A stretch of DNA of 42,781 bases, taken from an uncultured bacterium (GTDB lineage Bacteria > Verrucomicrobiota > Kiritimatiellia > RFP12 > UBA1067). The notes beneath the pieces are model-generated. The model saw only the letters and a program-made list of their open reading frames with translations. It searched no databases and was not told where the DNA came from. The position numbers and the translations under genes were made by a program. Of the stretch, positions 7,569-28,578 are shown piece by piece. The stretch covers positions 1-42,781 of the forward strand of contig CACZDG010000031.1 of NCBI GenBank assembly GCA_902779865.1, read 5' to 3'. The stretch's first letter is position 1; each line of letters opens with the position of its first letter.

Positions 7569-7643
7569 TGTTCGTAAAAATGCTAGAGTCCCAACCCGAA
7601 GGCTGGGACTCCGCTCCGCTTAGGCCGAACCTGGCGGGTTGAT
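7569..7643 (-). ncRNA. Structured leader RNA upstream of the NYN gene (locus 1)
   Basis: A predicted transcript of about 75 nt between the promoter and the NYN start. Hairpin 1 (7637..7616) is CCGC-C-AGG-loop TTCGG-CCT-AA-GCGG. Hairpin 2 (7611..7586) is GAGTCCCAGCC-TTCG-GGTTGGGACTC, followed after TAGCA by TTTTT, so it looks like an intrinsic terminator or attenuator ahead of the coding region. Locus 2 (16434-16511) folds the same way with compensating changes (AGA/TCT replaces AGG/CCT; hairpin 2 has a different sequence but the same shape). That supports a conserved RNA. Confidence 0.6.
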
Positions 7644-7649
7644 GACGGT

Positions 7650-7678
7650 AGTTTAGCAAATCGACCGGTGCGGCGCAA
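7650..7678 (-). promoter_or_regulatory. Promoter of NYN locus 1
   Basis: Minus-strand TTGCGC (7678..7673), 17-bp spacer ending TTTGC, TAAACT (7655..7650). The same boxes and spacing precede the broken NYN gene and both DUF3800 genes. Confidence 0.7.
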
Positions 7679-7748
7679 GGGCGATTCCTGAAAATTCGCG
7701 ATTTTTCGCTTTTGCGGTTCCCGCCGCGCTGGAAGCCCCGCCACCCAG

Positions 7749-8495
7749 TCACTTCCCCTTGGCTGGGTCGAACTCAATCTTGATGGGATTCGTAGGTATC
7801 TGTCTTGTCTCGTTCCATATCACCCGCTGGATGTCGTTCGTCGGAGGCGGAGCCCAGCCCATGCGGCACGCGGCGGCGTAGGTGGTGGGGCGGAGTATGG
7901 GGAGGTCAAGCATCCTCGCAGTATGCATGATCGAACTGATGTGCAGCGGGCTGAACATCTTGATCCTGATGTTGTCTATCTGCCCGACGCTGTATGCGGG
8001 CGAAAGGACGCTCGGCATCTTCGCAGAGTAGTACGCACCCAGTATCAGGCCGTATGCTCGGTACAGCTCTTTGCTGAGCCGGTCGGCCTCGATCTCTGCC
8101 GTGGTCGATCTAAGCGGCGTGACGTTGATCGTGGCAATCGCGTCATCGACATGGACAGAGAGTATCGGCCCGTCCTTCTCGCCGGAGTAGATGTAGATGA
8201 CGGCAGGGATTTCATTGTTCTTGTAGGATTTCGCCGCCTTGTATGGCGTTGCGTCTGACGGCTGAGCCGCGAGGTTCTTCACGGGTATGTGGAAGAGGTT
8301 CTCGGAACCCTTTATCAACTGCATGACGGCGTTTGTACTTGCCCCGCAAGAATTCACGATGGCAAGTCTCTTGCCGTTGTCTTTCGGAATGACTATGCCT
8401 CCTGTCCGTCTGAGAACGCTGTCGTTTGTCTCTGCGAGACAGTTCAGGGCGCAAAGTCCGACTATGAAGATCAACGTTGCTTTCATTGGTTTCAT
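7749..8495 (-). CDS. Secreted GWAPxPTNDIQ protein (module 2)
   Basis: 248 residues with a signal peptide (TLIFIVGLCALNCLA) and the C-terminal block CRMGWAPPPTNDIQRVIWNE then IPTNPIKIEFDPAKGK, which matches the module-1 protein at 6105. The first ATG (8495) overlaps the upstream stop as ATGA. A second in-frame ATG at 8486 is better spaced from AAAGGA and may be the real start (245 residues). The function is unknown. It is the last gene of the leftward module and is followed by the promoter region of the NYN gene. Confidence 0.65.
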   Translation of the reverse strand: MKPMKATLIFIVGLCALNCLAETNDSVLRRTGGIVIPKDNGKRLAIVNSCGASTNAVMQLIKGSENLFHIPVKNLAAQPSDATPYKAAKSYKNNEIPAVIYIYSGEKDGPILSVHVDDAIATINVTPLRSTTAEIEADRLSKELYRAYGLILGAYYSAKMPSVLSPAYSVGQIDNIRIKMFSPLHISSIMHTARMLDLPILRPTTYAAACRMGWAPPPTNDIQRVIWNETRQIPTNPIKIEFDPAKGK

Positions 8496-9472
8496 TTCCT
8501 TTCTGTGTTTTCCGTTTCCTTTTTCAAGAGGAAGTTCGCCGGTATTCTCAACGGCGGCTCTCCAAGCTCCTTAAGCTTCTTGTTCTGCTGCTCCATCCAG
8601 ATTCCAATCACTTCCTCGGACTCTCCAGCCTTTATGAGCTGGCTCAATCCTTGCCTCGCATTACGCACCTCAGCACGCACGTTACGTCCGATTTGGTCGA
8701 TCTCGTCGAATATCTCATCGTAGGTGTGTCCCTTTTTCTCAAGCGCCCTGACCTGCTCCTTTAAGTCCTGAAGCTCCATCTTTCGCGCCAATACCAACTC
8801 CGAATCGCCTGGCTCGGCTTTCAGATCCGTGTGGAACATCTCCTTTATCTGTTCCTCTGTGAAACGGCGGAACGCGAAACGCAAGGGAACTGCAATCCCC
8901 CGTGGATTGAGCGCCGACGATATAATCTGCTCCATCTGGTTGCGGAAGATCGCCTTGTGCCTGATGTTCGTCACCGTACCGTCCGCCAGCGTCACGACAC
9001 GCGAAAACCGCTGCGTCGTGACCGTACCAAGATACTTCTCCTTCTTTGGCGGCTCAACTGGAGTCTCTTCCGGCAGTGCCGCCGGGGCATTCGTGGGTGC
9101 AACGGGTCGTACCTCTGTCCGCACCGCTTTGGGCGGCTTCTCTGTTTTAGCTTTCTTCACCACTTGCTGTTGTGAGCTTGTAGGCTTCTCCACGCCACGC
9201 CCGCTCCACCACCACACGCCGCCGCCTACCACAACGGCAATCAGTACAGCGGCGGCCACCCATCTTGCTGTTGTACGCTTGCTGTCTCCCGCCCCACCAG
9301 TACGTGACCCCTTCGGGGAAGCGGCACTCTTGCCGCTTCGCCCCTCCTTAATCCCCGTGGGCGCAATCCCGCGTTTGCGGCACTCCGCCACGCACTCGGC
9401 GCGGTTCGCCGCCTCAACGCGCTCCTCGCGCAACGCGCCGTCCTTGGCGCGGTATGTCACCATGAATACCAT
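8492..9472 (-). CDS. Membrane protein with GspF-N-like domain (module 2)
   Basis: 326 residues from ATG 9472; another in-frame ATG lies at 9463. Residues 4-43 (VTYRAKDGALREERVEAANR then RKRGIAPTGIKEG) form a GspF N-terminal-like domain. A Ser/Lys-rich linker, one membrane helix (71-89, WVAAAVLIAVVVGGGVWWW), a Pro-rich segment and a helical C-terminal domain follow. It parallels the protein at 5072 but is clearly diverged from it, so the module duplication is old. The stop overlaps the next gene's ATG by 4 nt (ATGA). The proposed role at a secretion platform is inference. Confidence 0.65.
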   Translation of the reverse strand: MVFMVTYRAKDGALREERVEAANRAECVAECRKRGIAPTGIKEGRSGKSAASPKGSRTGGAGDSKRTTARWVAAAVLIAVVVGGGVWWWSGRGVEKPTSSQQQVVKKAKTEKPPKAVRTEVRPVAPTNAPAALPEETPVEPPKKEKYLGTVTTQRFSRVVTLADGTVTNIRHKAIFRNQMEQIISSALNPRGIAVPLRFAFRRFTEEQIKEMFHTDLKAEPGDSELVLARKMELQDLKEQVRALEKKGHTYDEIFDEIDQIGRNVRAEVRNARQGLSQLIKAGESEEVIGIWMEQQNKKLKELGEPPLRIPANFLLKKETENTERK

Positions 9473-9530
9473 TTCGCTATTCCCCAAATCTTGTTGTTGT
9501 ACGCTTGCTGTCTTTTACATCAAAATTGAA

Positions 9531-9556
9531 AGCCCGCCCGCTCACGCGGACGGGCT
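9531..9556 (-). terminator. Terminator-like hairpin after PEP-CTERM gene of module 2
   Basis: Minus-strand GCCCGTCCGC-GTGA-GCGGGCGGGC, with a GNRA-type loop, followed by TTTCAATTTTG. The plus strand is followed by CTCTTTTCTT, so it could stop transcription both ways. It shares its stem with 5023-5053 and 17445-17474. Confidence 0.65.
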
Positions 9557-9598
9557 CTCTTTTCTTGATGGTCGAACTACATTCGGCCAATCAAATGC

Positions 9599-10183
9599 TT
9601 ACGCACGCTTCCTGCGGAGCGCAAGACCGGCCATGCCGATGAGCATGAGCAAGCCACTCGTCGGCTCCGGAACCGGATCTGTACCCGACTTAGCAGAATA
9701 GGTCGTGAAGTTTGCCGCACCCCACGTCGCATTGGCGGGTGTCGCAGCGGCACGAATGTTTATCGTCTTTGCAGCATCCGCCACAGCAAGATTCTTTCCG
9801 TCTTCAGAAAGAACCACTGCGAAAACGGAATAGTTGCCCGTGCTGCCCGTTGTTCCGTATGACGTCACGGAGTTTCCGACGCTCGTCCCCTTACCCCCGG
9901 AAAGGGCAATGGTGTTGGGCGCAGTGCCGGACGCGGTGTTAAGGACAGCCAAGTCAGCTCCGAGCTGCGTTTTCACAGCATCGAACGTGAATGACTCCTG
10001 CTTTCCCGCCCAAGTCGAGATGTCAGCGATTGTGCTGCCGGCGAAGAGGTAGATTGTACCCGCATTGAACTTTTCAGTATCAAGTGCAGAGCCAACACCC
10101 CACGCAACAGTAGAAGCATTTACCATAGTCGCCATGGCAACCGTGGCAAACGCGAGTGATAATTTACTCATTTTCATTTTCAT
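9599..10183 (-). CDS. PEP-CTERM surface protein (module 2)
   Basis: 194 residues, the same length as the module-1 PEP-CTERM protein. It has a signal peptide (LSLAFATVAMATMVNA), a mature start STVAWGVGSALDTEKFNAG, and the C-terminal sequence VPEPTSGLLMLIGMAGLALRRKRA (written here only as landmarks: PEP, hydrophobic helix, RRKRA). AAAGGA lies close to three successive in-frame ATGs (10183, 10177, 10171); the second is the best spaced. Its membrane-anchor signal would be handled by an exosortase encoded elsewhere. Confidence 0.82.
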   Translation of the reverse strand: MKMKMSKLSLAFATVAMATMVNASTVAWGVGSALDTEKFNAGTIYLFAGSTIADISTWAGKQESFTFDAVKTQLGADLAVLNTASGTAPNTIALSGGKGTSVGNSVTSYGTTGSTGNYSVFAVVLSEDGKNLAVADAAKTINIRAAATPANATWGAANFTTYSAKSGTDPVPEPTSGLLMLIGMAGLALRRKRA

Positions 10184-10229
10184 TTTCCTTTGTTTTCTGC
10201 GACGCGCACCATGCGCCTCGCAAAATTGT

Positions 10230-10952
10230 TTACTCGCTCAGACTGACTGTCCAAGTGCGGGTTCCGCCAACGGCAGGCATGAAAATCGCTCCGCAGCCTG
10301 CCTTCAAAATCACGTCGTTTTCAGATGTCAACATGGTGGTGTCGTAAGTTTCCATATCCATTACCGACCACCCAGGTGAACCAGCACCGGTATCAGCAAC
10401 ATACTGATACCAGTCGTAGTTGTACGCAGCATCATTCCAGACGAGCAGAACATCACCATCAACAACGAAACCGGCAAACATCTTCGCGGTGGTAGCAACC
10501 GGGAACGGGTTTGCAATCGGGAACATCGTCTCGTCGGGCTCGCCGTTAAGGTCGATCTCGAACACACGCGAGGCGCCTTTCGTGTCTGCGACTTCACCGG
10601 AAATGGTAATGTCTGGAGCCGCACCCATATAGACTAGCGAATCGCCGGGATTGACGGTGAACGAATCCACAATACGCGTATCATACGTTTCCATGTCCAT
10701 TATAGACCAACCAGGTGAGCCAGAACCCGTGTCTGCCACGTACTGATACCAGTCGTAGTTGTAGGCAGCGGGGTTGAAGATGAGGATCACATCACCATCG
10801 GAAATGTCCGTATTGAACAACTTGTTGGACACGGTGTAGGCACCATTCGCCGCACCGATATTCGAGAACGAGACGCCAACGTCAATCGTTCCCGAGACCG
10901 TTGTCGCGGGCAACTCGTTCTGGAGATACCCGACAACGGGAGAAGTCTCATT
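10230..10952 (-). pseudogene. 5'-truncated two-repeat secreted protein (module 2)
   Basis: The frame reads from NETSPVVGYLQNELPATTVSG through two tandem repeats and ends TRTWTVSLSE. The VVGY start and two-repeat plan match the gene at 3495, but no ATG, ribosome-binding site or signal peptide precedes it: a TGA lies in frame just before NETSPVVGY. The only start-like codon is TTG at 10913, inside the domain. The repeats, each with NYDWYQYVADTG.GSPGW..MDMETYDT, are about 339 bp apart. It is probably a remnant that lost its 5' end in the rearrangement that formed the inverted module; an unrecognised start remains possible. Confidence 0.55.
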
Positions 10953-13724: not shown

Positions 13725-14246
13725 TTACATCCCCAGAAGGCTACGCAACCTCTCGGTGATGCCTGCAAGATACGGGTTGGTCTCCTCGACGCGCTCGGCA
13801 ACGGAGACGAGATCGGCGGCGGAGATGAAGTCGCGCTCGACAAGCCAACGCAGTACCTCGAACTCCCATAAGGCGCGGACGCCGTTCGCGTCGCAGTTCT
13901 CGCGGAGGCGCTTGTCATTTGACCACACGGTGTAGCCGTTGTCTTTGGCCATGAGAAGGAGCGAGCGGTCGGGATACGACAGCCGCTTGTCATGGTATCG
14001 GGCGACGCGTTCCATGAGTGCGATCTCCACGGGGAGGATCGTGATTCCAAGGTCGGCGATCTGGCTCTCGGTGATGACGGCGCTCACCTCGTCGTAAACG
14101 ATACGCGGCAGATACACGTCGGCGAGGTCGTGTCGGATGAGGTCGCCGACAAGCCCCAGCGCGTTCGCGCTGAGCAGGTCGATGAGGACGTTTGCGTCCG
14201 CCAGGAGGATTTCAAGCCTCCCGCTGTCGGGCGGGGCGGCGCTCAT
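13725..14246 (-). CDS. PIN-domain putative RNase toxin
   Basis: 173 residues. The PIN motifs are visible: ADANVLIDLL (Asp17, Asp23), YDEVSAV (Glu53), and the later Asp residues in YPDRSLLLMAKDN and WSNDKRLREN. PIN proteins are metal-dependent RNases and often type II toxins. The ATG overlaps the stop of the XRE-ImmA gene as ATGA, which indicates translational coupling and a toxin-antitoxin-like pair. Confidence 0.8.
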   Translation of the reverse strand: MSAAPPDSGRLEILLADANVLIDLLSANALGLVGDLIRHDLADVYLPRIVYDEVSAVITESQIADLGITILPVEIALMERVARYHDKRLSYPDRSLLLMAKDNGYTVWSNDKRLRENCDANGVRALWEFEVLRWLVERDFISAADLVSVAERVEETNPYLAGITERLRSLLGM

Positions 14247-15373
14247 TCGGCGGCCTCCCGCGCCCATTCGTTGACGAGCGTCCGCGTTTCGAGGAGCGAT
14301 TTGCCGATGAGTTCGGCGAGACGCGGCATCGTGATGTCGCCCGCGACGAACGCCTTGCGGGCGAGGCGGACGAAGCGGGCGGACTCGATGCGGATGTCCG
14401 CCGGACACGCCTCCTCGTGTGCAGGGAGCGTGCGGCCGAAACGGCGGATGTAGTTCTCCTTGAACCAGTTGCGATACGGCGGCACGGTCTTTTTGCCGGA
14501 GGTCGCTCGGTAGCGTTCCTCTAGGCAGTAGATTACGGTTAGGTAGCTCACGGTGAAGATGCGCTTCACTGCGAGAATGCGGTCGAACCATAGACGCCCT
14601 TCGGTGTTGTCCCATGCGGAGTTGAACTCCGCCGTGGGAATCAGCATCCCGGCGGCAAAGGCGTTTGCCTCCTTCTCGCGTCGCTTCCTCGCCTCTGGGG
14701 AATCGTCTGCGTCACCCTCCTGGTGGTGCATCAGCAGATGGCCGGTCTCGTGGCAAAGCGTGAAGAGCTGGCGTTCGCCGGGGACGGCCTCGCCGTTGTT
14801 GACCGCGATCCCGCACGAGCCGTTGGGGAGCTTCAGTGAGAAGCCGAATTCGCTGGAAAGAGGAAACGCGACGGACAGGAACTTGACGCCGTTCGCCTCC
14901 AGCGCCTCGCCGAAGCGGCGGACGTTGTCATACCCTTGCCGAAACAGACAGTTGCGGACTTCCGTTCCGAATGTACGGGCCTCTTCAACCGAGGCGACGT
15001 GCTTTTGCATGGAGAGGAGTTCGGAACTTTCGATCTTCTCGCCAGTGAAAGATTCAAGTTCCGCATAGTCTTCGAACTTCCTTTCCGCATCGAGGATCAT
15101 CTGGTCGAGGCTGGCGCGTTCCTGTTGTGAATAGACCTTCTTATGGCGGAAGAGCGGTGCGGACTGGCGGTCGGGACTCTCCAGCAAGGCGGCGGGGGTA
15201 ATGCCGAATATGCGGGACAGGCGGTAGAACACGTCGTCGGTTATCGTCGCCTTTCCGTTCTCATACTTGCTGAAGGTAATGCGGCTCACGCCGATACGAT
15301 CAGCCATCTGGCCTTGGTCAAGGCCGAGAATCTGCCTTCTGCGGCGGATATTTCTGGCAAGTATGTCTTTCAT
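14243..15373 (-). CDS. XRE regulator with ImmA/IrrE-type Zn-peptidase domain
   Basis: 376 residues. Residues about 8-60 form an XRE helix-turn-helix (GQMADRIGVSRITFSKYENG). The second half is a COG2856/ImmA-IrrE peptidase with H208-E209-x-x-H212 (LCHETGHLLMH) and the downstream helix EKEANAFAAGMLIP, whose Glu235 is the likely third zinc ligand. Such fusions usually sense stress and control linked toxin or phage genes; here the linked gene is a PIN RNase. AAAAAGGAC precedes the ATG. Paired TTTACAAA-type sequences around its promoter may be its own operator. Confidence 0.82.
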   Translation of the reverse strand: MKDILARNIRRRRQILGLDQGQMADRIGVSRITFSKYENGKATITDDVFYRLSRIFGITPAALLESPDRQSAPLFRHKKVYSQQERASLDQMILDAERKFEDYAELESFTGEKIESSELLSMQKHVASVEEARTFGTEVRNCLFRQGYDNVRRFGEALEANGVKFLSVAFPLSSEFGFSLKLPNGSCGIAVNNGEAVPGERQLFTLCHETGHLLMHHQEGDADDSPEARKRREKEANAFAAGMLIPTAEFNSAWDNTEGRLWFDRILAVKRIFTVSYLTVIYCLEERYRATSGKKTVPPYRNWFKENYIRRFGRTLPAHEEACPADIRIESARFVRLARKAFVAGDITMPRLAELIGKSLLETRTLVNEWAREAAE

Positions 15374-15433: not shown

Positions 15434-15570
15434 GTATCGTTTCAAAATATTTTTACTATTACAAAAATCACTTTACAAATAATTATAAAATAATAACAAC
15501 ACAGGCGGACACACCCCGCGTGGTGCGCAAGAGGGGGAGTAGTTGCACCGTTGAGGTATGCTTTTTTGCG

Positions 15571-15708
15571 CTAGAGTTCGTTCAGGATGCGCGTGCGCTG
15601 GGCTGCGTGTTCCTCTTCGGTGATCAGTCCTTGTTTGAGGAGGTTGGCAAGGCGTCGGAGGCGGGCGGGGATGGGGGATTGCGGCGCGCTCGGTGATCGC
15701 GCCCTACC
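15571..15708 (-). repeat. Integrase 3'-end copy A (SHOCT-like tail)
   Basis: On the minus strand this repeats the last 45 or so codons of the integrase at 17499, from GRARSPSAP through RLRRLANLLKQGLITEEEHA to the TAG stop, with few base changes. It has no start codon of its own and is a fragment. Its left end is fused to the stop codon of the broken NYN gene. Confidence 0.8.
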
Positions 15709-15808
15709 GCCACGCGGGCGGGCGGTGGATAAAGCGGTCGTTACGTTTCCCGTACGGGATAGTGTCAGGGAGTTGGCATTGCGCAGGAAGATCGCGGGGG
15801 ATGTGTTT

Positions 15809-16345
15809 AATGTGAAAATGTGGAAGTGTGGAAATATGCAAGTATGGAAATATGAAAATATGAAAATGGAATGGGGCAGAAAGTGGAAATGTCATTGCCG
15901 CGCTTGGTTTTTGCGTGCGGTGATGATGCTTGCAGAAAAAATGCGCGTCAGAGAAACGGCTTCCTCTATAAGAGCCGCCAACTTACGCTTCTCGACATAG
16001 CCGCTTTCGACGATGACCTTGAGCCACACGCGCGTTTCGGATAGTTCCTTCTTCGGATAGTTCCTTCATTGCGATCTTCAACTTGTGGATGAAGTCCTTG
16101 CGCGATTCCGCTTCCTCAGCTTCGGCGTAGTTCGCCGCAACGCTCGTGGCGGAACGGAACACCTGATCGGCAAGACTGGTGCTTCCGATTTTCCTGTCAG
16201 GCAGCGCAACGCACACCTTTATGCATCGTGACGTAAACTTCACGACTCTGTCTTCAAGTTCAACGTTCATCCTTAGACCTCATTTCCACACTCCATTTCC
16301 ACACTTGCATATTTCCATATTTTCACACTTCCACAGTTTCACATT
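15809..16345. mobile_element. IVP-carrying element with long terminal inverted repeats
   Basis: A 537-bp block whose two ends are inverted copies of one A/G-rich sequence: AATGTGAAAATGTGGAAGTG at 15809-15828, and its counterpart with one change reading inward from 16345. The inverted similarity continues for about 60-80 bp through degenerate ATGGAAA-like heptamers. Between the ends lies one IVP-type gene. It interrupts a NYN gene and has no transposase, so it would be non-autonomous. Target-site duplication is not evident because NYN sequence is missing. Confidence 0.6.
15892..16270 (-). pseudogene. Four-helix-bundle (IVP/S23-like) protein, frameshifted
   Basis: The reading frame begins MNVELEDRVVKFTSRCIKVC and contains FRSATSVAANYAEAEEAESR then KDFIHKLKIAMKELSE, the signature of TIGR02436-type four-helix-bundle proteins (intervening-sequence proteins, related to Avd). 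After KELSE a perfect 16-bp tandem duplication (16036-16067) shifts the frame. Removing one copy restores ETRVWLKVIVESGYVEKRKL and a normal end at 15892, about 120 residues in all. No 23S rRNA gene or reverse transcriptase is nearby, so its partner is unknown. Confidence 0.78.
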
Positions 16346-16433
16346 CAAATCGGCCAAGCCACTTATACGGAGTTCCCTTGAGAAGTCTGTAATACAGATT
16401 GTAACCATCAATATAGGCAATAACGCGTTTCAT

Positions 16434-16511
16434 GTCTCTCCTTGAAAATGCGATGACCTCAACCTTGCGATTGAGGTCATGCTCCGCTTAGACCGAGTCT
16501 GGCGGGTTGAT
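16434..16511 (-). ncRNA. Structured leader RNA upstream of the broken NYN gene (locus 2)
   Basis: Hairpin 1 (16505..16484): CCGC-C-AGA-loop CTCGG-TCT-AA-GCGG. Hairpin 2 (16480..16453): ATGACCTCAATC-GCAA-GGTTGAGGTCAT, a 12-bp stem with a GNRA loop, followed by CGCATTTTC. The single-stranded joint CTAAGCGGAGC and the 5' ATCAACCCGCCAG are shared with locus 1, whereas the stems differ by paired changes. Confidence 0.6.
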
Positions 16512-16517: not shown

Positions 16518-16546
16518 AGTGTATCAAACTTCGGCGTGTGGCGCAA
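16518..16546 (-). promoter_or_regulatory. Promoter of NYN locus 2
   Basis: Minus-strand TTGCGC (16546..16541), 17-bp spacer ending TTTGA, TACACT (16523..16518). Confidence 0.7.
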
Positions 16547-16615
16547 GGCCTTACGGGAAACAGTTTCTTGGTTCCGATGCTGCCCTTGTGCGTCGTGGAG
16601 TTATGCGTTTTTTCG

Positions 16616-16738
16616 CTAGAGTTCGTTCAGGATGCGCGTGCGCTGGGCGGCGTGTTCCTCTTCGGTGATCAGTCCTTGTTTGAGGAGGTTGGCAAGGCGT
16701 CGGAAGCGGGCGGGGATGTACTTTTTCGAGGTAGTCAT
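16616..16738 (-). CDS. SHOCT-like 40-residue ORF (integrase tail copy B)
   Basis: A complete frame, MTTSKKYIPARFRRLANLLK then QGLITEEEHAAQRTRILNEL, ending in TAG. From IPAR onward it equals the C-terminus of the integrase, but here the tail has its own ATG and seven new residues. The ribosome-binding site is poor (AAGG touches the ATG). The promoter of the toxin-antitoxin pair begins 3 bp away on the other strand. It could be a real SHOCT-type microprotein or simply a duplicated integrase end. Confidence 0.45.
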   Translation of the reverse strand: MTTSKKYIPARFRRLANLLKQGLITEEEHAAQRTRILNEL

Positions 16739-16740
16739 CC

Positions 16741-16770
16741 TTGACTTGGCTGATAGAGTTATGATATAAT
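16741..16770 (+). promoter_or_regulatory. Promoter of the toxin-antitoxin pair
   Basis: TTGACT at 16741-16746, 18-bp spacer, TATAAT at 16765-16770. AGGAG (16790-16794) is the ribosome-binding site, 5 nt before ATG 16800. Confidence 0.75.
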
Positions 16771-16799: not shown

Positions 16800-17063
16800 A
16801 TGTTTGTAACACAAATAAGACCAGTCACAGACTTGCGGAATCACTATCCCGAAGTGGAAAGCGATTTGCAACACGGGCCTGTCGTCCTGACCAAGAACGG
16901 CTATGGTGCGTCCGTACTTGTCAGCATCAGTCTTTACGACAAGCTCATGGCAAAGCAAGCCATGTATGAAGCCATTGCGAGATCCGAGACGGAAATAGAT
17001 GCCGGAGAAGGGCTTGACGCTAAATCTGCACTTGCGAAAATGAGGGCGACACTTCATGTATAG
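16800..17063 (+). CDS. Phd/YefM-family antitoxin
   Basis: 87 residues. The N-terminal half (VTQIRPVTDLRNHYPEVESD, then GPVVLTKNGYGASVLVSIS) is the DNA-binding Phd/YefM fold; the acidic C-terminal tail would wrap the toxin. Antitoxins of this type repress their own promoter, here the TTGACT/TATAAT pair just upstream. The stop overlaps the toxin's start by 8 nt, the usual coupling in type II pairs. Confidence 0.85.
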   Translation: MFVTQIRPVTDLRNHYPEVESDLQHGPVVLTKNGYGASVLVSISLYDKLMAKQAMYEAIARSETEIDAGEGLDAKSALAKMRATLHV

Positions 17064-17376
17064 GGTTGTCATTTCGCCATCAGCAAATGCCGACTTGTTC
17101 AATGCACTCAGTTACATCACATACGAATTGGCGAATCCTCAGGCTGCGGCAAAACTAGCGGACGGAATTGAAAAGTGCTATGCGGACCTTGAGGAATTTC
17201 CCGCCGCACATGAACTTTGCCGTGACTCCGTCCTCGCTCGCATGGGGTATCGCAGATATCCAGTCGGTAACTACCTTGTAATATTTCGCATCGTTGAAGA
17301 GTCGCAGGAAGTGAGGGTCCTGCACATTTTCCATGCACTGCAGAACTACCTTGAGACTTTAAAAGGCGGAGCTTGA
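17056..17376 (+). CDS. RelE/ParE-family toxin
   Basis: 106 residues with the RelE/ParE pattern: VVISPSANADLFNALSYIT, a long helix to EEFP, then the strands YRRYPVGNYLVIFRIVEE and VRVLHIFHALQNY. Such toxins cut mRNA on the ribosome (RelE) or poison gyrase (ParE). RMGYRRYPVGNYLVIFRI with HIFHALQNY is common in ParE-like members, so the target cannot be decided from sequence alone. Its end overlaps a PEP-CTERM remnant on the other strand. Confidence 0.83.
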   Translation: MYRVVISPSANADLFNALSYITYELANPQAAAKLADGIEKCYADLEEFPAAHELCRDSVLARMGYRRYPVGNYLVIFRIVEESQEVRVLHIFHALQNYLETLKGGA

Positions 17377-17474: not shown

Positions 17475-17498
17475 CGTCTCGGTATAGCGCAAGTATCG

Positions 17499-18935
17499 CT
17501 AGAGTTCGTTCAGGATGCGCGTGCGCTGGGCGGCGTGTTCCTCTTCGGTGATCAGCCCTTGTTTGAGGAGGTTGGCCAACCGTCGGAGGCGGGCGGGGAT
17601 GGGGGATTTCGGCGCGCTCGGTGATCGCGCCCTACCAGTGGTGGCGTCGGGGGGCGGCGCGCTCGGCGAGCGCGCCCTACCGGTGGACGCGTCGGGGGAC
17701 GGCGACCATTCCCCGTTCCCCGTTCCCCGTTCCCCGTTCCCCATTCCCCGTTCCCCGATCACCGGAATGGCGGCGACGGCCTTGCGGAGATTTTCCTCGT
17801 TCTCGTGGTAGTAGTGGCGGGTCATGGCGGTCGAGCAATGTCCGACGATTGACTGCACGACCGGAAGCGGTACGCCCGCATTGGCCGAGAGCGAGACGAA
17901 CGTGTGCCGCAGGCTGTGGAACGACGCGACGACGCTCTTGCGGGTGCGTCCTTCCATGCGGACGCTCATCGTGATGTTCGCCGCCTTGAAGATGCGCGAG
18001 AGTTCGGCGTCCAGCCGCCAGTTTTCGTTGAGGTAGAGGTTGGCGATGGTGGGGTTGACGTAGGGGGAGGACGGCGACGGCGCGCTCGGCGAGCGCGCCC
18101 TACCATCGGCCGCGACAAGCGCGGCCGCTCCCGTTGTGGCCGCGTCGGTGGATGGCGGCGCGCTCGGTGATCGCGCCCTACCGGTCAATTCCTTTAGCAG
18201 TTCTGGATGAATGGGAATCGTCACGGGGCGGCCGTGCATGTGTTTCTTCGTCTTTTCCGGGATGACCTGGATGACCTGACGTTCGAGGTTGACGTTGTCC
18301 CATGTGAGGCGGCAGCAGTCGCCGAGGCGGAGTCCCGTGTAGGTGCCGGTCATGAAGAGGAGTTTCCACTCCGCGCCCGCCTTCGACGCGGCGGCGTGGA
18401 GACGCCCCAGCTCGTCGATGGTGAGTTCGCGACGGCTCACCGAGTCGTCGGCGAGAAGGCACACGCCCGCCCAGGGGTCGTGCGCGACGCCAGCCTTGTC
18501 GGCGAGGAGACGGAACACCTCGCGGAGCGCGCAGACGTGGTTGTTGTATGTCGTGGCGGAATGGTGGCAGCGGAACTGCGTAAGGTATTCCGCCACCGCC
18601 TCGTCGGTCACTTCGGCGAGGTGTCCGATCTCGACGTGGTACTTCTCCATCCACCGCGAGAACGACATCCACACGGCGCGTTTCGAGTCGAGCGTGGCCT
18701 TGGCGATGTCGCGCCGGTTGGGCGACATCTCGTAGCGTTGCCAGGCGTCCGCCAGCGGGAGGCGCGTCGCGCCGAGTCCCAGCGGCGCGAGGAAGCGCTC
18801 CAGCGCCCGCTCCGCCTTTTCGCGGTCCGTCGTTCCCGTGGAACGGCTGTAGCGCCGTCCGTTGATGCCTACGCGGAGCGTGTAGCGTCCGCTTTTCTCT
18901 TTTTGCAGGTTTCCCCTGCCTTTTTCTCGTGCCAT
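17499..18935 (-). CDS. Tyrosine recombinase (phage-type integrase) with SHOCT-like tail
   Basis: 478 residues from ATG 18935, chosen because AAAGGAAACC lies upstream. An SAM-like core-binding domain spans about 60-150. The catalytic domain has Arg203 (TGLRLGD), a Lys in PEKTKKH (228-231), His340-x-x-Arg343 (FHSLRHTF), His366 (GHCSTAMT) and Tyr375/376 (RHYYH), so it should be active. Residues 251-292, in a loop, and 393-446, after the catalytic tyrosine, are low-complexity inserts that translate repeats: GRARSPSAP four times and GERGMGNGERGTGNGE. The last 30 residues (RLRRLANLLKQGLITEEEHA then AQRTRILNEL) resemble a SHOCT domain. Confidence 0.85.
   Translation of the reverse strand: MAREKGRGNLQKEKSGRYTLRVGINGRRYSRSTGTTDREKAERALERFLAPLGLGATRLPLADAWQRYEMSPNRRDIAKATLDSKRAVWMSFSRWMEKYHVEIGHLAEVTDEAVAEYLTQFRCHHSATTYNNHVCALREVFRLLADKAGVAHDPWAGVCLLADDSVSRRELTIDELGRLHAAASKAGAEWKLLFMTGTYTGLRLGDCCRLTWDNVNLERQVIQVIPEKTKKHMHGRPVTIPIHPELLKELTGRARSPSAPPSTDAATTGAAALVAADGRARSPSAPSPSSPYVNPTIANLYLNENWRLDAELSRIFKAANITMSVRMEGRTRKSVVASFHSLRHTFVSLSANAGVPLPVVQSIVGHCSTAMTRHYYHENEENLRKAVAAIPVIGERGMGNGERGTGNGEWSPSPDASTGRARSPSAPPPDATTGRARSPSAPKSPIPARLRRLANLLKQGLITEEEHAAQRTRILNEL
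17608..17681. repeat. REP-like palindromes, copies 2 and 3
   Basis: Two copies of GGCGCGCTCGGYGAKCGCGCC followed by CTACC, at about 17608-17637 and 17654-17681. The second form, GGCGCGCTC-GGC-GAGCGCGCC, is a perfect hairpin. Both are in frame within the integrase (residues 434-442 and 419-427). Other copies lie at 15680-15706, 18073-18103 and 18152-18182. Confidence 0.75.
17706..17747. repeat. Heptanucleotide tract inside the integrase gene
   Basis: Six units of CCRTTCC (42 bp). Because 42 is a multiple of 3, the tract is in frame and encodes GERGMGNGERGTGNGE on the minus strand. Gain or loss of one unit would remove the SHOCT-like tail. Confidence 0.8.
18073..18182. repeat. REP-like palindromes, copies 4 and 5
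   Basis: Copies of the GGCGCGCTCGG...CGCGCCCTACC repeat at about 18073-18103 and 18152-18182, encoding GRARSPSAP at residues 278-286 and 252-260 of the integrase, inside a surface loop of the catalytic domain. Confidence 0.75.
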
Positions 18936-18965
18936 TTCTGGTTTCCTTTCCATGTTGTTTCTGGA

Positions 18966-19042
18966 AAGGGGGAACGGGGAATGGGGAACGGGGAGCGGGG
19001 AATGGTTTTTAGCCACAAAGATCACTAAGGGCACAAGGGGAA
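18966..19042. repeat. Heptanucleotide tract plus TTTTAGCCACAAAG repeat
   Basis: GGGGAAC/GGGGAAT heptamers (about 18966-19003) run into TTTTTAGCCACAAAGATCAC and a short continuation. The second part also occurs at 19897-19935, 26388-26428 and 27641-27683. It lies between the integrase and the GspF-N-like gene upstream. Confidence 0.7.
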
Positions 19043-19048
19043 TGTGGG

Positions 19049-19828
19049 TCAGTCGCCGGATTCGGGCATGGGGACGAGGCGGATGCCCATGTTGCGGAGT
19101 TCGGCGTTGCCGGACTTCCACTTGGCCTCGACTTCCGCGTCGGGGAGTCCGCTCTTCGCGGCGGACGCGATCTCCTCCTTGACGCGGCGGTAGTAGGAAA
19201 GCTCCTGTTCCTGTCGCTCGACGAGGCGTTCGCCGTACTTCGCAATCGTGCCGCCCTTGGCCAGGTAGGCGCGAAGCTCGTCCTTCATGCCCTCGACCAT
19301 CGACTTGATCTGCTTCGCCTCCATCGAATCGTCGGGCTGGATCGCGACCGTCCGCTTGAGCGCCTTCTCCAGCTCGGCGACGTTGGTGGTGCGCACGCCC
19401 GCCGGGACGCCGGGGATGGCGAAGGACGCGAGGAACCGCTCTCCCTCCTCCGGGAACACGTCGCTCCAGCCGTTCTTCATGCCGGCCTCGATCACGGCGG
19501 TGTCGCCGATGATCTGCCGCCGCGTCTTTGCGAGGAACACCGACTCCTCGACGACGGGGACTTCAGCTTCCTTTTCGCGAAGCTGCGCGGATTCACGGAG
19601 GTACGCGACGGTCGCCACGACCAGAGCAAGGGCCAGCACCACGAAAGCAGCCAGCCGCCAGCCGAGGAGGCCGGACAGGCGGTTGAAGAAGCCGGGGGCG
19701 GGCTCCACGCCGAAAGCCTTGATGCCCTTGGCGCGAAGTTCGTCATACACGGCCTCGCGGGAGCGGGCGGCATGTACGCCGGAATGCCGCACGCCGTCGC
19801 TCGTCTTGTACTGGTAGGTGAACTTCAA
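19049..19828 (-). CDS. Membrane protein with GspF-N-like domain (third copy)
   Basis: 259 residues. Residues 1-42 (TYQYKTSDGVRHSGVHAARS then ELRAKGIKAFGVEP) form the GspF N-terminal-like domain. A membrane helix lies at about 57-76 (WRLAAFVVLALALVVATVAY). The C-terminal helical domain includes GERFLASFAIPG, KALKRTVAIQPDDS and NAELRNMGIRLVPMPE, which parallel the proteins at 5072 and 8492. It stands alone next to the integrase, without the other three module genes. Its role is unknown. Confidence 0.65.
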   Translation of the reverse strand: MKFTYQYKTSDGVRHSGVHAARSREAVYDELRAKGIKAFGVEPAPGFFNRLSGLLGWRLAAFVVLALALVVATVAYLRESAQLREKEAEVPVVEESVFLAKTRRQIIGDTAVIEAGMKNGWSDVFPEEGERFLASFAIPGVPAGVRTTNVAELEKALKRTVAIQPDDSMEAKQIKSMVEGMKDELRAYLAKGGTIAKYGERLVERQEQELSYYRRVKEEIASAAKSGLPDAEVEAKWKSGNAELRNMGIRLVPMPESGD

Positions 19829-24420: not shown

Positions 24421-25961
24421 CGGCCTCCCCTCGAACATCGACGCATGATCGGGGTCGAGGTGGAACATCAACGCCCGGATGGCGGCATCGACCGCGCCCC
24501 TGCGGGCGAGGCGCGATCGGCCCATCGACTCCGCGCCGGCCATGAGGAAGTCGATCCCGCCGCACTCGATGAGACGCGCCGTCACGTCGTCGGCCGACAC
24601 GCCGCTTTCGGCGGCCAGCCGCTTCACGACCTCCCCGACAAGCCATGAGGGCGTGTGGCGGTTCTTCGCCGCCTGCCGCTTCTCCCACTCCGCCCACTGC
24701 GCGGGCGTCCACTTCGCCTGCGCCGCCGCAAGCGCCTCGGCCCGCTTCCGCCGACGGTACTCGCGGTTGTACGCCATCTGCTTGTCGTGCCGTCGCTTCT
24801 GACGCTCCAGCTGCTCGGCGGACGGCTCGGCCTTGCCCTCGGACACGAGCCGCCGGTGTTCGCGTCTCTTTGCCCTGGCCGCCTTGTCGAGGTCCCTGCG
24901 CATCCGCCCGACGAGCCAGTCGTCAAACTCCTTGCGGCTTTCGCGGAGGTAGAGGCTCCATCGTTTGCGCTCCTCCGGCGTCCACTTGCGCTTCTTCGTG
25001 GGAAGCCCCATGCTCCGCCGCGCCCTTTCCAAGCCGTTCTTGTAGGCGGTCACCTTGTACGCGAACTTTTCATACGCCTGTTTGAGCAGCGTCTCCCGCT
25101 CGGCGGCTTCCGCCTTGCGCGCCTCCTGCTTGGCCTGTTTCGCGGCCTGACGCTCCGCCGCCTTCGCCTTGCGCAACGCCTCGCGCTCCGCTCCCTTGGC
25201 CTTGCGCGCGGCCTGTTCCGCCTCCTCGCGCATCCGCCACTCCCAGTCATCGTCCCCGCCGCCGGTTCCGATTGTTCTGCTTGGTGGCTCGACGGGCGGG
25301 ATGATGAACGACGGCGAACGCGGCACCGCCGCCCGTTCCCCGTTCCCCATTCCCCGTTCCCCGTTCCCCATTCCCCATTCCCCGTTCCCCGCGCTCCGCC
25401 TTGGCGGCGAGATACGCCGCCCGGTTCGCCTCGCGTTCGGCGGCGAAAGTCTCGCGGGCGTTGCGCATTTCCGCAACGCGGGCGGCTTGCGCCTCTTCGC
25501 GTTCGCGGATGCGTTTTTCGCGGACGGTCCGTGCGGCCTCGCGCTTCCGACGCTCCGCCTCCTCGCGCTTCTTCTTGCGCCTCGCCCTCTGCTCGGAGCA
25601 TTTCTCCCGCGCCACGGTGAGCCAGTACAGGTTCTGCGCCCTGCGCTCCTCCGCCGTGCGCGGCTTTCTTTGCATCGATGTCGCAGCCGAAACGTTCAAG
25701 CGCGTCCCGGCGTCGTCTCTCCCGCTCCAGACGCTTCGCCTCCTCCCGCAGCACCCGCTATCGCTCCCTGGCCTTGGCGAGCGCGGCGAGACACCTCTCG
25801 CGCCGGGCAGCGGCGGCTTCGCGTTTCCGCTTCGCGGCCTCCTTTGTGCGCTGGTAGCTCTGGCGGCGGAGTTCGCGCACCCTCTCGGCGTGTGCCTTGC
25901 GCCACTCCCTGCTGCATTCGTTTTCGTACCGCTTCCGCGCCTCCGCCTCCTCCAGCGACAT
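24409..25961 (-). pseudogene. Long Arg/Lys/Glu-rich coiled-coil protein, broken
   Basis: Three frames on the minus strand join into one basic protein. The first runs from ATG 25961 (MSLEEAEARKRYENECSREW) to an in-frame TAG at about 25758, and past it RVLREEAKRLERERRRRD continues. The second frame (MQRKPRTAEERRAQNLYWLT to AAYLAAKAER) ends in a GGGAAYG heptamer tract. The third runs to TGA at 24409 (MFEGRPLTR). Its C-terminal 270 residues are intact and include KWTPEERKRWSLYLRESRKE and TPSWLVGEVVKRLAAES. The family is unknown; DNA or RNA binding is only a guess from charge. The last part could be expressed alone. Confidence 0.5.
25333..25396. repeat. Heptanucleotide tract in the broken basic protein gene
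   Basis: About nine units of CCGTTCC/CCATTCC. The reading frame before and after the tract differs, so unit number decides whether the two parts are joined. Similar tracts lie at 17706-17747, 18966-19003 and 27688-27749. Confidence 0.75.
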
Positions 25962-26515
25962 CTCCCGAGCGTGAGCGGGTGGGGCGCGGGTGGGCGCGGG
26001 TGGGATGCGGGTGGGACGCCGCCAAGCGCTTTGGGATTTGGAAACAATCATGACAACTTTCAATAACAACTTTATCCTTCGGGCACACCTTGAACAGGCC
26101 AATGGCAAAACTAGTGGTTGGTGGTGAGTGGTCAGTGGTTAGTGGTTTGTGATTCGTGATTGGCGATTGGCGATTGGTGGCAAATGGGCACGGGCGAGTT
26201 AGCCCGCGCGCATAAGCAAGTTGTTTTCAAATGGTTGTTTCCATTCAAAAAGCGGCGGTGGGTGCGGATGGGACGCCGCCAAGCGCTTTGGGATTTGGAA
26301 ACAACCATGACAACTTTCAACAACAACTTTATCCTTCGGGCACACCTTGAACAGGCCAAGGAAAAACTAGTGGCTCGTGGCGAGTGGTGGATTTTAGCCG
26401 CAATGAACGCAAAGGGCGCAAAGGTGGATGGGGGGATCTTGCTGACTGGGAGAGCCGCCAACTTGGCGGCGGTGGGTGGGGAGGCTCACTGGGGAATGGG
26501 AACGGCGCGGAAAGG
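25962..26515. repeat. Repeat-filled spacer: partial and full copy of a 260-bp repeat
   Basis: No gene seen. About 25985-26110 is a partial copy (GACGCCGCCAAGCGCTTTGG, then ACAACTTTC and TTTATCCTTCGGGC). About 26111-26172 holds degenerate GTGGTTAG and GGCGATT heptamers. A full copy spans about 26173-26432 and contains the 74-bp palindrome and the TTTTAGCCGCAATGAACGC repeat. The full copy is nearly identical to about 27428-27690. Confidence 0.75.
26233..26306. repeat. 74-bp palindromic repeat, copy 1
   Basis: Outer arms GGTTGTTTCCA and TGGAAACAACC are perfect 11-bp inverted repeats; an inner imperfect stem pairs AAAGCGGCGG with CGCCGCCAAGCGCTTT. The long hairpin looks MITE-like. Copy 2 is at 27488-27561, and a right-hand half lies at about 26012-26050. 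Confidence 0.7.
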
Positions 26516-27211
26516 TCATGTGTACTCCTTGTGCGACAATGGCTTAAGGTAGTTCTTCTTGAAGTTCTTGATTCCGCCGAAGAACCTATCTTCAGATTCA
26601 GAGATTGAACCATTCTCAAGCAGTTTCGCCTTGACTAGTTCAAGTGTGCAGATCACGTCAGCCACTTGAAAGAGCCTGTATCTTGCAGGGTACACGTCCG
26701 TTGCGAACGCCACCTTTGATGAGTAGATGGCAAAAGCCTCGTTTAAGAGCGCAGTTATTTGAGCCTGTCCGTTATCGTAATAGACCTTGATCTGGTCACA
26801 AGCATTAAAATCGTCGCGGTGGGATATCAGGAAATCCACGATTTCCTGAAGAAGCGTATCGTGTATTGCGCTGACCCCGGAATTGTAGGGCTTGAACAGC
26901 TTAAAGCACTTGTACTTGAATTGGGCTTTCTGTATGAACACCATCATGCGGCGGAATATTCGGATTCGCATTTCCCTTGGCATGGTCCTGTATTCATCTT
27001 CGCGTCGAATCATCGGGCCGGCATGTATCGTATGGTCTGGATCAATTCCAGTCCGTCCAAAAGCCTCACGCAGCCGGTCAAGCTCGCTCGATATGTCGTC
27101 TGATTGGTCGTGGAAAACCATGCACAAGATATAGTATGGGGAATGCAAGTCTGCTCCGGCTGGTGAGAAACTGCCGGACTCGTCAACGAATATGCTTATC
27201 TCTTTCGTCAT
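26516..27211 (-). CDS. DUF3800 protein A (putative RNase H-fold nuclease)
   Basis: 231 residues. DUF3800 signatures: ISIFVDESGSFSPAG at the N-terminus (catalytic-type Asp and Glu), YYILCMVFH, IHAGPMIRRE, IKVYYDNGQAQIT, and RLFQVADVICTLELVK near the C-terminus, where the Asp is usual. The family has an RNase H-like fold and is thought to be a nuclease; its function is not established. The gene has its own promoter (27315-27343) and a structured leader, and lies between two 260-bp repeats. It is diverged from DUF3800 B (27755), so the duplication is not recent. Confidence 0.8.
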   Translation of the reverse strand: MTKEISIFVDESGSFSPAGADLHSPYYILCMVFHDQSDDISSELDRLREAFGRTGIDPDHTIHAGPMIRREDEYRTMPREMRIRIFRRMMVFIQKAQFKYKCFKLFKPYNSGVSAIHDTLLQEIVDFLISHRDDFNACDQIKVYYDNGQAQITALLNEAFAIYSSKVAFATDVYPARYRLFQVADVICTLELVKAKLLENGSISESEDRFFGGIKNFKKNYLKPLSHKEYT

Positions 27212-27308
27212 GGTTCTTGTCGCCTAAAAACAATGGCGAGGATTGCTCCTCGCCAAAGGCAGGAAAGTTTCCCGCATCCCGGTGACTCCGACATCGCTGT
27301 CTTTGTCG
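27212..27308 (-). ncRNA. Structured leader RNA of DUF3800 A
   Basis: Between promoter and ATG. The 5' part contains GACA-GCGA-TGTC, then ACCGGGATGCGGGAAAC. The last hairpin (27254..27235) is GGCGAGGA-GCAA-TCCTCGCC, a perfect 8-bp stem with a GNRA loop, followed by ATTGTTTTTAG, so it resembles an intrinsic terminator in front of the gene. CGGGATGCGGG is shared with the leader of DUF3800 B. Confidence 0.6.
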
Positions 27309-27314
27309 AGGGGT

Positions 27315-27343
27315 AGTGTACCAAATATCGACGCGTGGCGCAA
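27315..27343 (-). promoter_or_regulatory. Promoter of DUF3800 A
   Basis: Minus-strand TTGCGC (27343..27338), 17-bp spacer ending TTTGG, TACACT (27320..27315). Upstream it shares CGCTCGCACCCTTGCGCC with the DUF3800 B promoter. Confidence 0.72.
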
Positions 27344-27754
27344 GGGTGCGAGCGGAAAAGTTGACAACTTTCAACAACAACTTTATCCTTCGGGCGAACC
27401 TTGAACAGTCCGATGGCAAAACTTGTGGTTGGTGGCAAATGGGCGCGGGCGAGTTAGCCCGCGCGCATAAGTGAGTTGTTTTCAAATGGTTGTTTCCATT
27501 CAAAAAACGGCGGTGGGCGCGGATGGGACGCCGCCAAGCGCTTTGGGATTTGGAAACAACCAAAACAACTTTCAACAACAACTTTATCCTTCGGGCGAGC
27601 CTTGAACAGGCCAAGGAAAAACTAGTAGCTCGTGGCGAGTGGTGGATTTTAGCCGCAAAGAACGCAAAGGGCGCAAAGGTGGGTGGGGAATGGGGAATGG
27701 GGAACGGGGAACGGGGAATGGGGAACGGGGAACGGGGAACGGGGAACGGGGGAT
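27344..27754. repeat. Repeat-filled spacer between the two DUF3800 genes
   Basis: No gene seen. About 27362-27430 is a partial repeat copy and about 27428-27690 the full 260-bp repeat (palindrome copy 2 at 27488-27561; TTTTAGCCGCAAAGAACGC at 27641-27683). About 27688-27749 is a GGGGAAT/GGGGAAC heptamer tract that ends just before the stop codon of DUF3800 B. The order repeats that of 25962-26515. Confidence 0.75.
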
Positions 27755-28438
27755 TCAGATTTCCTTTGCCTTGATCTTTCTTAAGACGTTACGCTTGAAG
27801 TCACGCGGTCCGCCAAAGAAACGCATTTCGGACGGGGTCATTGAAATGTCGTTGGCAAGGCGCAATTCGATGAGGTGTAATGTGCAGACGAGATCGGCAA
27901 GCTGAAACAACCGGTAGTTCGATGGTTTCACTCCCAACTTGAACTCGACCGTTTCGCCAATCGCGTCTGCAAGAGTACCTTGCAGCAGACGCGTCACCGG
28001 AGATTGTCCGCAATCGTAATAGACTTTTATGTGTTCGATGGAAGAGAAATCTTCTCGGCGCGAATCAATGAATGCGATCAGCGAAGCTCGCAGATGCTCG
28101 ACTATCTGAGATGCAGAGTCAATGAACTTCTTATCGACGCTTAGACAATGGTACTTGAAATCCACATGCGATGCAAAAGCCATCATGCGCGAGAATATCC
28201 GGCCTCGGAACTTACGGCTCAAAATCTCATATCCCTTTTCCTTGCGGATAAGAGGCCCTGCGTGGAAACAATGGCCTTCGAGCCCTAGTTCTGATTCTGA
28301 ACGTTCAAGATCGGCGACAAGGGAGGATATGTCAAGCGACTGATCATGGAAGACCATGCCAAGGATATAGAAACGAGAGGCATTGTCGAGATACTGAAAG
28401 CGTCCTGACTCATCAACGAATATGCTCAGCGTGTCCAT
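27755..28438 (-). CDS. DUF3800 protein B (putative RNase H-fold nuclease)
   Basis: 227 residues from ATG 28438, which puts the family motif at the very start (LSIFVDESGRFQYLD); the longer frame lacks a ribosome-binding site and runs into the leader hairpin. Other motifs are FYILGMVFHDQSLDIS, CFHAGPLIRKE, IKVYYDCGQSPVT and YRLFQLADLVCTLHLIE. It has the same plan as DUF3800 A with about half the residues changed. ATAAGGAAACG is the ribosome-binding region. No antitoxin-like protein gene is adjacent. Confidence 0.8.
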   Translation of the reverse strand: MDTLSIFVDESGRFQYLDNASRFYILGMVFHDQSLDISSLVADLERSESELGLEGHCFHAGPLIRKEKGYEILSRKFRGRIFSRMMAFASHVDFKYHCLSVDKKFIDSASQIVEHLRASLIAFIDSRREDFSSIEHIKVYYDCGQSPVTRLLQGTLADAIGETVEFKLGVKPSNYRLFQLADLVCTLHLIELRLANDISMTPSEMRFFGGPRDFKRNVLRKIKAKEI

Positions 28439-28543
28439 GTCGTATCGTTTCCTTATAAAGAGAAGGTGGTGGGAATTGCTTCCTACCACCTACGCGAGGA
28501 CTTTCCCCCGCATCCCGATGATCCTTCCGTGCGGAAAGATCGA
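28439..28543 (-). ncRNA. Structured leader RNA of DUF3800 B
   Basis: The 5' hairpin CTTTCCG-CA-CGGAAGG is followed by ATCGGGATGCGGGGGAAAG, which matches the DUF3800 A leader. The terminal hairpin (28490..28465) is GGTGGTAGGAA-GCAA-TTCCCACCACC with one mismatch, followed by TTCTCTTTATAAGG. It has the same order of elements as the other three leaders. Confidence 0.58.
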
Positions 28544-28549
28544 TTAGTA

Positions 28550-28578
28550 GTTTATCAAATATCTGGCGGCGGCGCAAG
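28550..28578 (-). promoter_or_regulatory. Promoter of DUF3800 B
   Basis: Minus-strand TTGCGC (28578..28573), 17-bp spacer ending TTTGA, TAAACT (28555..28550). Confidence 0.72.

Follow-up and report, generated by a model that had tools for sequence, protein, structure and literature searches.

A stretch of 42,781 nt from an uncultured Kiritimatiellia bacterium (the window: contig CACZDG010000031.1 of assembly GCA_902779865.1, a 4.3-Mb genome) carries four minus-strand units, NYN 1, a broken NYN 2, DUF3800 A and DUF3800 B, each with a promoter and a folded leader whose parts were assigned by reading the sequence. We consider it likely that the NYN protein is a toxin neutralised by a co-transcribed RNA, in the manner of type III toxin–antitoxin systems, and that DUF3800 probably works likewise. 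The evidence lies in paired changes in the RNA, a layout of RNA, hairpin and open reading frame (ORF) that recurs across phyla, and an invariant acid cluster in the protein, together with plasmid carriage, orphan RNAs and, in one lineage, tandem arrays.

The four leaders conform closely to the initial annotation. All show TTGCGC, 17 bp and TAMACT on the minus strand (−10 sequences TAAACT, TACACT, TACACT and TAAACT), and all end in a tetraloop hairpin (UUCG in NYN 1, GCAA in the other three) followed by a U-rich stretch. Leader length had been put at 75–105 nt; the distance from the −10 sequence to ATG was measured at ~80–110 nt. Folding z-scores of the four leader stretches relative to shuffled sequences were −3.9, −3.6, −3.3 and −4.4. 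Between the two NYN leaders, hairpin 1 differs as AGG/CCT versus AGA/TCT, and hairpin 2 has a different sequence that is equally paired, both as described. The second NYN unit is likewise real, with its boundary corrected: the start codon lies at 16431–16433.

To place these leaders among their relatives, the NYN 1 protein was searched in 98 genomes, its own included. Matches occurred in 21 genomes, with 9 in its own and 13 in a second genome (G012), fragments included. Removal of matches lacking the N-terminus, and of leaders identical to one already taken, left 33 leaders, of which 31 shared one plan, one was a divergent version (L033) and one (L038) had no leader RNA. The plan consists of a promoter, an optional 5′ hairpin (AACCCC...GGGUU), hairpin P1 (CCGC, an inner hairpin often CUUCGGC-like, GCGG), hairpin P2 (GC, at least 8 pairs with mostly a tetraloop, a bulge, GC), a U-rich stretch and ATG. 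L038 was excluded from the alignment (A1) and L033, which scored 17.3 bits, from the covariance model (R1); a further sequence, L034, was added only via R1.

Covariation was counted at 16 named pairs in an alignment of 31 trimmed leaders, 30 of them distinct. Paired cells amounted to 93.1%, against 81.9% in shuffled alignments and 35–47% in slid versions of the structure, a comparison in which the structure is favoured over the slid versions by having been derived in part from the same sequences, and in which related rows are not independent. Eleven of the 16 pairs had changed on both sides, the covariation score was 0.350 as opposed to 0.152 after shuffling, and none of 500 shuffles reached any of the pairing measures. 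The covariation across homologous leaders that had been proposed as a check was therefore found for NYN. No match above the gathering score of any Rfam family was obtained on the NYN RNAs scanned; weak sub-threshold matches fell at the terminator hairpin, one example near an NYN RNA (L145) having E 0.12 on the opposite strand. Judged from these alignments, the NYN RNA is a real conserved structure, distinct from the Rfam families.

A terminator-like hairpin (−10 kcal/mol or lower, at least 4 T in the next 8 nt, ending 4–60 nt before the start) was found at 34/36 Kiritimatiellae-type NYN loci, 28/31 other NYN loci and 20/25 DUF3800 loci, compared with 42/170 controls, which were ORFs called naively at the same loci and preceded by at least 100 nt of free sequence; related loci are not independent in these counts. 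When 5 T were required, the corresponding values were 19/36, 27/31, 19/25 and 21/170. As in type III loci, a predicted Rho-independent terminator thus separates the RNA from the nuclease ORF at the 34 of 36 and 28 of 31 NYN loci. An earlier automated count (−10 kcal/mol, 5 T) of 31/54 NYN loci and 42/211 controls had poor start-codon calls and DUF3800 among the controls, and was superseded by the curated one.

The R1 search of the 98 genomes, run with strict filters at the cost of some weak matches, returned 50 matches of at least 47 bits, 31 of them training sequences, and the scores then fell in one gap to 28.9 bits. With two further places from named records (L120 and L123), 52 places were inspected. 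At 41 of these, the RNA leads to an NYN N-terminus within 140 nt, intact or broken, and the remaining 11 are orphans without one. Pieces of NYN were detected by tblastn at four orphans (L034, L050:10910, L058 and L060) and not at the other seven, among which L137, L138 and L054:4511 retain, by eye, a few start-like codons; one orphan, L139, lies directly 5′ of a DUF3800 unit. Orphan RNAs had 1.3 broken pairs of 16 and the 44 other aligned rows 0.9, in an alignment that was fitted to the model and contains some redundant rows. The orphans support, without proving, selection on the RNA alone.

A scan beyond KIRITIMATIELLAE in named genomes gave 16 loci, among them metagenome-assembled genomes (MAGs) from sheep rectum and yak colon whose titles name Kiritimatiellae. 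Proteobacterial NYN homologues were 28–41% identical in the best segment. Most of their RNAs are of another type, with CCC/GGG closing pairs, an inner hairpin, GAAAA and a strong terminator, and weak R1 matches were found just 5′ of four of the genes (L133, E 1e-4; L126, 0.001; L124, 0.02; L129, 0.08). For 21 aligned proteobacterial and plasmid RNAs, taken without the terminator, 88.4% of cells were paired versus 76.6% in shuffles (0/500), the covariation score was 0.430 versus 0.225 (0/500), and 6/8 pairs had changed on both sides (2/500 shuffles). Sequences outside this alignment (A5: L124, L132, L133, L134, L145, L151, L157, L158, L165, L166, L168–L176 and L179) were of another RNA type, had no recognisable RNA, were near-duplicates or were not added. 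The pairing of NYN with a structured RNA recurs, in comparable form, in other phyla and on plasmids.

Carriage of the gene is patchy. An Idiomarina NYN query matched 418 of 72,556 plasmid records, 359 with at least 80% query coverage, and 3 of 50,697 phage records; plasmid and phage upstream regions, 15 and a further 8, all had hairpins near the NYN start. In the order around a Rhodoferax-titled genome (G098), the NYN gene was present in 8 of 300 genomes, G098 included, and because so few carry it, the gene is accessory on this distribution. A 5.7-kb ColRNAI plasmid of Klebsiella (NZ_CP031882.1, L149) has both NYN and DUF3800 among its 5 annotated genes, with a terminator-like hairpin 5′ of each. 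Some plasmid relatives (e.g. L153, L155 and L156) have longer ORFs, and their records name them 6-hydroxy-3-succinoylpyridine 3-monooxygenase (HspA/nicB) or describe them as proteins with an Xre/MbcA/ParS antitoxin domain.

Type III loci were defined by a promoter, tandem repeats, a terminator and a nuclease in this order (PMC5086642). The last three elements were read in a 4.6-kb Escherichia coli plasmid (L151), where four 18-nt hairpins in units of 29–33 nt precede a terminator and an NYN gene; Tandem Repeats Finder (TRF) reported a period of 33, 2.6 copies and 96% matches. Related arrays comprise 4 units in Klebsiella quasipneumoniae (L175) and 5 in E. coli (L176), and the last unit deviates from the others through compensatory changes. 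The 849-base stretch of array and NYN gene occurred in 10 of 5426 complete E. coli genomes, in every case on a plasmid.

The NYN 1 protein matched Pfam NYN (PF01936) with E 1.6e-10. The PADLOC model HEC-09, whose prefix we take to mark a candidate only, matched 10 of 10 NYN proteins scanned, and profile match and conserved acid residues together place the protein in this family. Asp10, Asp122, Asp147 and Asp149 were invariant in all 16 aligned proteins. An AlphaFold2 model from 10 sequences reached a predicted local distance difference test score (pLDDT) of 86.8, and a fold search with it returned as closest structures Vibrio VPA0982 (2qip), of unknown function, and the NYN domain of MARF1 (5yaa, 6fdl), a mammalian RNase domain, both of which share the fold of the model; no sequence relative was found in the PDB at E 0.01. 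The enzyme looks intact, because the acid cluster is invariant and the model has the NYN fold. HEC-09 covers the protein alone, and the available part of the paper naming it describes no RNA partner. In the records listed, proteins of this group bear the label 'NYN domain-containing protein' or the misleading name of an enzyme.

Folded leaders are present at all four window genes, as the initial annotation had it; the single RNA implied for them did not hold, since NYN leaders have two hairpins and DUF3800 leaders three, with other conserved sequence. The two alignments differ, and no strong R1 match was found in the DUF3800 units of the window. DUF3800 leaders of the window type form two groups. 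RNAalifold gave a poor result on a mixed alignment (A4), with 5/12 pairs changed on both sides, and A4 was split into A6 and A7. In A6, from which alone the pair counts were taken (7 sequences, 18 pairs), 95.2% of cells were paired versus 92.3% in shuffles (1/500) and 3 pairs had changed on both sides (4/500), so that covariation in the DUF3800 RNA appears modest.

The two DUF3800 leaders of the window gave no match to the Rfam DUF3800 RNA families even at E 5. Among relatives, DUF3800-VII (RF02967) was found in L082 with 57.4 bits, over the cut-off, and DUF3800-XI (RF02975) in L080 and L088 with 33.6 bits, below the cut-off of 37.8. These Rfam small RNAs, like DUF3800-I and -IX, resemble the present units in placing a structured RNA near a DUF3800 gene. 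DUF3800 has been associated with putative non-coding RNAs and has a predicted RNase H fold (PMC10910872). It occurred at 27 places in 60 genomes, and at eight of these NYN was also matched on the contig (G010:C106, G012:C89, G012:C121, G001:C406, G010:C1, G000:C38 and, twice, G000:C31). In one DUF3800 leader (L084:2068–2189), the 26 nt of hairpin I are exactly duplicated in tandem.

The promoter, by comparison, links the units less than had been proposed. TTGCGC-N17-TANACT with at most one mismatch occurred 5 times in the window against 0.54 expected, a number reached in 0/100 shuffles; the fifth copy, TATACT, lies at 34003 on the plus strand. The pattern with a final A occurred 11 times in the genome: four copies are the window units, one is a further DUF3800 unit on contig C13, and six lie elsewhere, with neighbours identified by ORF reading. 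It is therefore an ordinary promoter, 6 of whose 11 copies stand away from NYN and DUF3800 units, and because it is found at other genes it was rejected as a link among the units and dropped as evidence. The type III order of one promoter ahead of both RNA and nuclease ORF is nevertheless present in the sequence of the window units and their relatives.

The following working is proposed. From one promoter, a short structured RNA would be made and mostly terminated at its last hairpin, an intrinsic terminator, while some transcripts would read through into the nuclease gene; the leaky terminator would thereby keep the RNA in excess over the protein. The toxin would be NYN, as a PIN-like endoribonuclease, and the antitoxin the RNA, which would bind the enzyme and block its activity; by analogy with AbiF-RCd22, the RNA may also lower expression of its own toxin. 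We infer that the transcribed RNA accumulates, that the protein is toxic and that binding by the RNA inhibits it; any biological role is inferred in the same way. DUF3800, in an identical layout and behind an RNA of its own, probably works likewise. Modules of this kind would keep plasmids and genomic islands stable, serve in phage defence, or both.

Among known systems, ToxIN, CptIN and TenpIN share with the NYN units one promoter, an upstream RNA, an intrinsic terminator, a nuclease ORF and plasmid carriage, and the tandem array of ToxIN-type loci is matched in one enterobacterial NYN lineage. Unlike them, the putative toxin is a PIN-like NYN protein, the window RNA is a single unit, and the NYN units are known here from sequence alone. 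The proteins belong to Pfam NYN and DUF3800 rather than to the ToxN, CptN or TenpN families, with NYN structures first in the fold search. The best reading is that the NYN units would work like type III systems and stand outside ToxIN, CptIN and TenpIN, because the toxin family differs and the window RNA is non-repetitive. By analogy, the closest worked-out case for the mechanism is AbiF-RCd22 of Clostridioides difficile (Rfam RF03085), which has a promoter–RNA–terminator–gene plan, a terminator that halts most transcription, and an RNA that neutralises AbiF in cis and in trans (PMC12373285). The resemblance extends to a structured RNA of ~100–130 nt with hairpins and a terminator, co-transcribed with a toxic gene (PMC12373285). 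In contrast to NYN, AbiF belongs among the Abi_2/AbiD/F proteins and is linked to the ancestors of Cas13, and no match to the abiF-family RNA was found at the NYN loci scanned.

Several observations weigh against a toxin neutralised by RNA. Tandem arrays were found in only 3/31 upstream regions of non-Kiritimatiellae NYN genes (L151, L175 and L176, one close lineage) and in 0/35 Kiritimatiellae leaders, the four window units included; TRF repeats reported in Kiritimatiellae regions sit upstream of the leader. The window's leaders therefore lack the tandem-repeat antitoxin of type III loci, so that the type III-like proposal of the initial annotation, well supported for NYN by covariation, terminator hairpins, orphans and the arrays of one plasmid lineage, loses on this count. 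The U-tracts in Kiritimatiellae are short, with a strict terminator in only 19/36 loci, and in A6 further pair types were fewer than in all 500 shuffles. The orphan evidence is no proof, because R1 detects only well-folded copies, which biases the sample, and because one orphan is common to G012 and G010 with flanks 98–99% identical, a divergence too recent for it to serve as a test of constraint. Given the strict filters of the 98-genome search, the empty range of R1 scores between 47 and 29 bits is weak evidence. HEC-09, moreover, correlates with phage susceptibility and not resistance in PMC12447246, the one paper found to name it.

Some of this would be expected of an attenuator that acts solely in cis, in which the nuclease sets termination or mRNA decay by binding or cutting the leader of its own gene, with no toxin and no separate life for the RNA. 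Some RNases do regulate their own mRNA by such leader action, and the RNA–terminator leader, with start codons close behind the hairpin, has an attenuator-like layout; this too tells against a toxin. The AbiF RNA also reduces expression in cis (PMC12373285). Autoregulation as the whole explanation nonetheless seems unlikely, given that folded RNAs with promoter-like sequence survive without an intact NYN gene at 11/52 places, that arrays of variable copy number in one plasmid lineage would be superfluous for an attenuator, and that the units are patchy, multi-copy and carried on plasmids (21/98 genomes; 13 matches in G012; 8/300 in another order).

Short and paired over most of their length, the aligned RNAs show no apparent variable guide-like segment; arrays repeat a nearly identical hairpin, and orphan RNAs are frequent. 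An effector resembling CRISPR-type ribonucleoproteins, in which the nuclease would take the RNA as guide or cofactor or would process it, is rather improbable on these features, even though NYN matches a PADLOC model and a TPR-DUF3800 protein adjoins Cas12a2 (PMC10910872). A CRISPR-associated NYN ribonuclease is reported to process RNA (PMC11346440), and NYN with RNA need not mean a toxin, a further point against the neutralised toxin. That the leaders are ordinary, with good promoters and terminators that converged and an RNA without function, would account for the promoter pattern at other genes and the terminator-like hairpin in 42/170 controls. It would leave unexplained the covariation in 31 Kiritimatiellae and 21 proteobacterial or plasmid RNAs, the near-invariant P1 columns, the comparable NYN-RNA pairing in other phyla, and the 41/52 RNA places that lead to an NYN N-terminus, with NYN pieces at 4 of the other 11; we regard it as very improbable. 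A toxin neutralised by its co-transcribed RNA is thus the explanation that we favour.

Table 1. Positions of the parts of the four nuclease units in the window
Feature	Position	Strand	Remarks
NYN unit 1 promoter	7650–7678	−	TTGCGC 7673–7678, 17 bp, TAAACT 7650–7655
NYN-RNA 1 hairpin P1	7616–7637	−	CCGC...GCGG enclosing inner hairpin
NYN-RNA 1 hairpin P2	7582–7614	−	GC...GC, bulge, UUCG loop, terminator-like
NYN-RNA 1 U-rich stretch 3′ of P2	7576–7581	−	
NYN-RNA 1, covariance model R1 match	7574–7643	−	63.3 bits; belongs to R1 training set
NYN nuclease gene 1, intact, 219 aa	6909–7568	−	PADLOC HEC-09; invariant D10, D122, D147, D149
NYN unit 2 promoter	16518–16546	−	TTGCGC, 17 bp, TACACT
NYN-RNA 2 hairpin P1	16484–16505	−	
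NYN-RNA 2 hairpin P2	16450–16482	−	GCAA loop, then ATTTTC 16444–16449
NYN-RNA 2, R1 match	16442–16511	−	66.3 bits; pairing kept despite broken gene
NYN 2 remnant, residues 3–28	16353–16430	−	tblastn
NYN 2 remnant, residues 184–219	15707–15814	−	tblastn
DUF3800 unit A promoter	27315–27343	−	
DUF3800-A RNA hairpin I	27284–27307	−	
DUF3800-A RNA hairpin II	27259–27275	−	
DUF3800-A RNA hairpin III	27235–27254	−	GCAA loop, then U-rich stretch 27225–27234
DUF3800 gene A, 231 aa	26516–27211	−	Pfam E 1.9e-10
DUF3800 unit B promoter	28549–28577	−	
DUF3800-B RNA hairpin I	28520–28541	−	
DUF3800-B RNA hairpin II	28492–28513	−	
DUF3800-B RNA hairpin III	28464–28491	−	GCAA loop, terminator-like
DUF3800 gene B, 227 aa	27755–28438	−	Pfam E 8.4e-11

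Around the broken NYN unit 2, of which tblastn recovered no residues besides the two remnants in Table 1, a 140-nt stretch was identified in three direct copies (15569–15708, 16614–16753 and 17497–17636; the middle copy 80% identical). They flank this unit and a YefM/ParE type II pair (16800–17376, plus strand), and the third overlaps the 3′ end of a tyrosine-integrase gene (17499–19121, minus strand). To judge by these copies, it is as if toxin modules had been added stepwise at the integrase end. The first ~105 nt have a copy (88%) in contig C1 of G010, on which NYN and DUF3800 genes are also present. The end of the stretch is an interspersed repeat of 27–31 nt (17606–17636) that recurs across the window's own genome and G010, and the 54 and 58 matches of the 140-nt query in these two genomes were mostly to this end. 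A gene for a 23S rRNA intervening-sequence-type protein (15983–16270) lies between the two NYN 2 remnants, and a run of GGGGAATGGGGAACGGG-type short tandem units (27680–27750) between DUF3800 A and B. Overlapping minus-strand ORFs at 13725–15373 gave a PIN-domain match (13725–14615) and a helix-turn-helix and IrrE/M78 match (14243–15373).

The initial annotation had known of no description of NYN or DUF3800 toxins with an RNA partner. For DUF3800 this does not stand, in view of the Rfam small RNA families and the available part of PMC10910872; for NYN it does, as no report was found in PubMed Central (PMC). Among the results of the PMC searches, no title or abstract opening described the pairing, a weak absence as preprints and most subscription journals lie outside PMC. 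We lean towards the view that HEC-09-type NYN proteins add one more family, of unrelated fold, to the toxins neutralised by RNA, and that their RNA antitoxins fall into several classes, tandem arrays included, in multiple phyla and on hundreds of plasmids; the host range of this family would, with similar probability, take in Kiritimatiellota, Proteobacteria, a Bacteroidia-labelled MAG and Leptospira. If so, a PIN-like fold would join the RNA-neutralised toxins, and the DUF3800 and AbiF RNAs would be tied with it into one plan, in which structured RNA, terminator and nuclease form a general modular arrangement for unrelated nuclease folds. The conserved RNA partner would give HEC-09/NYN proteins a testable mechanism, and a small tandem-array version is present on natural E. 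coli plasmids.

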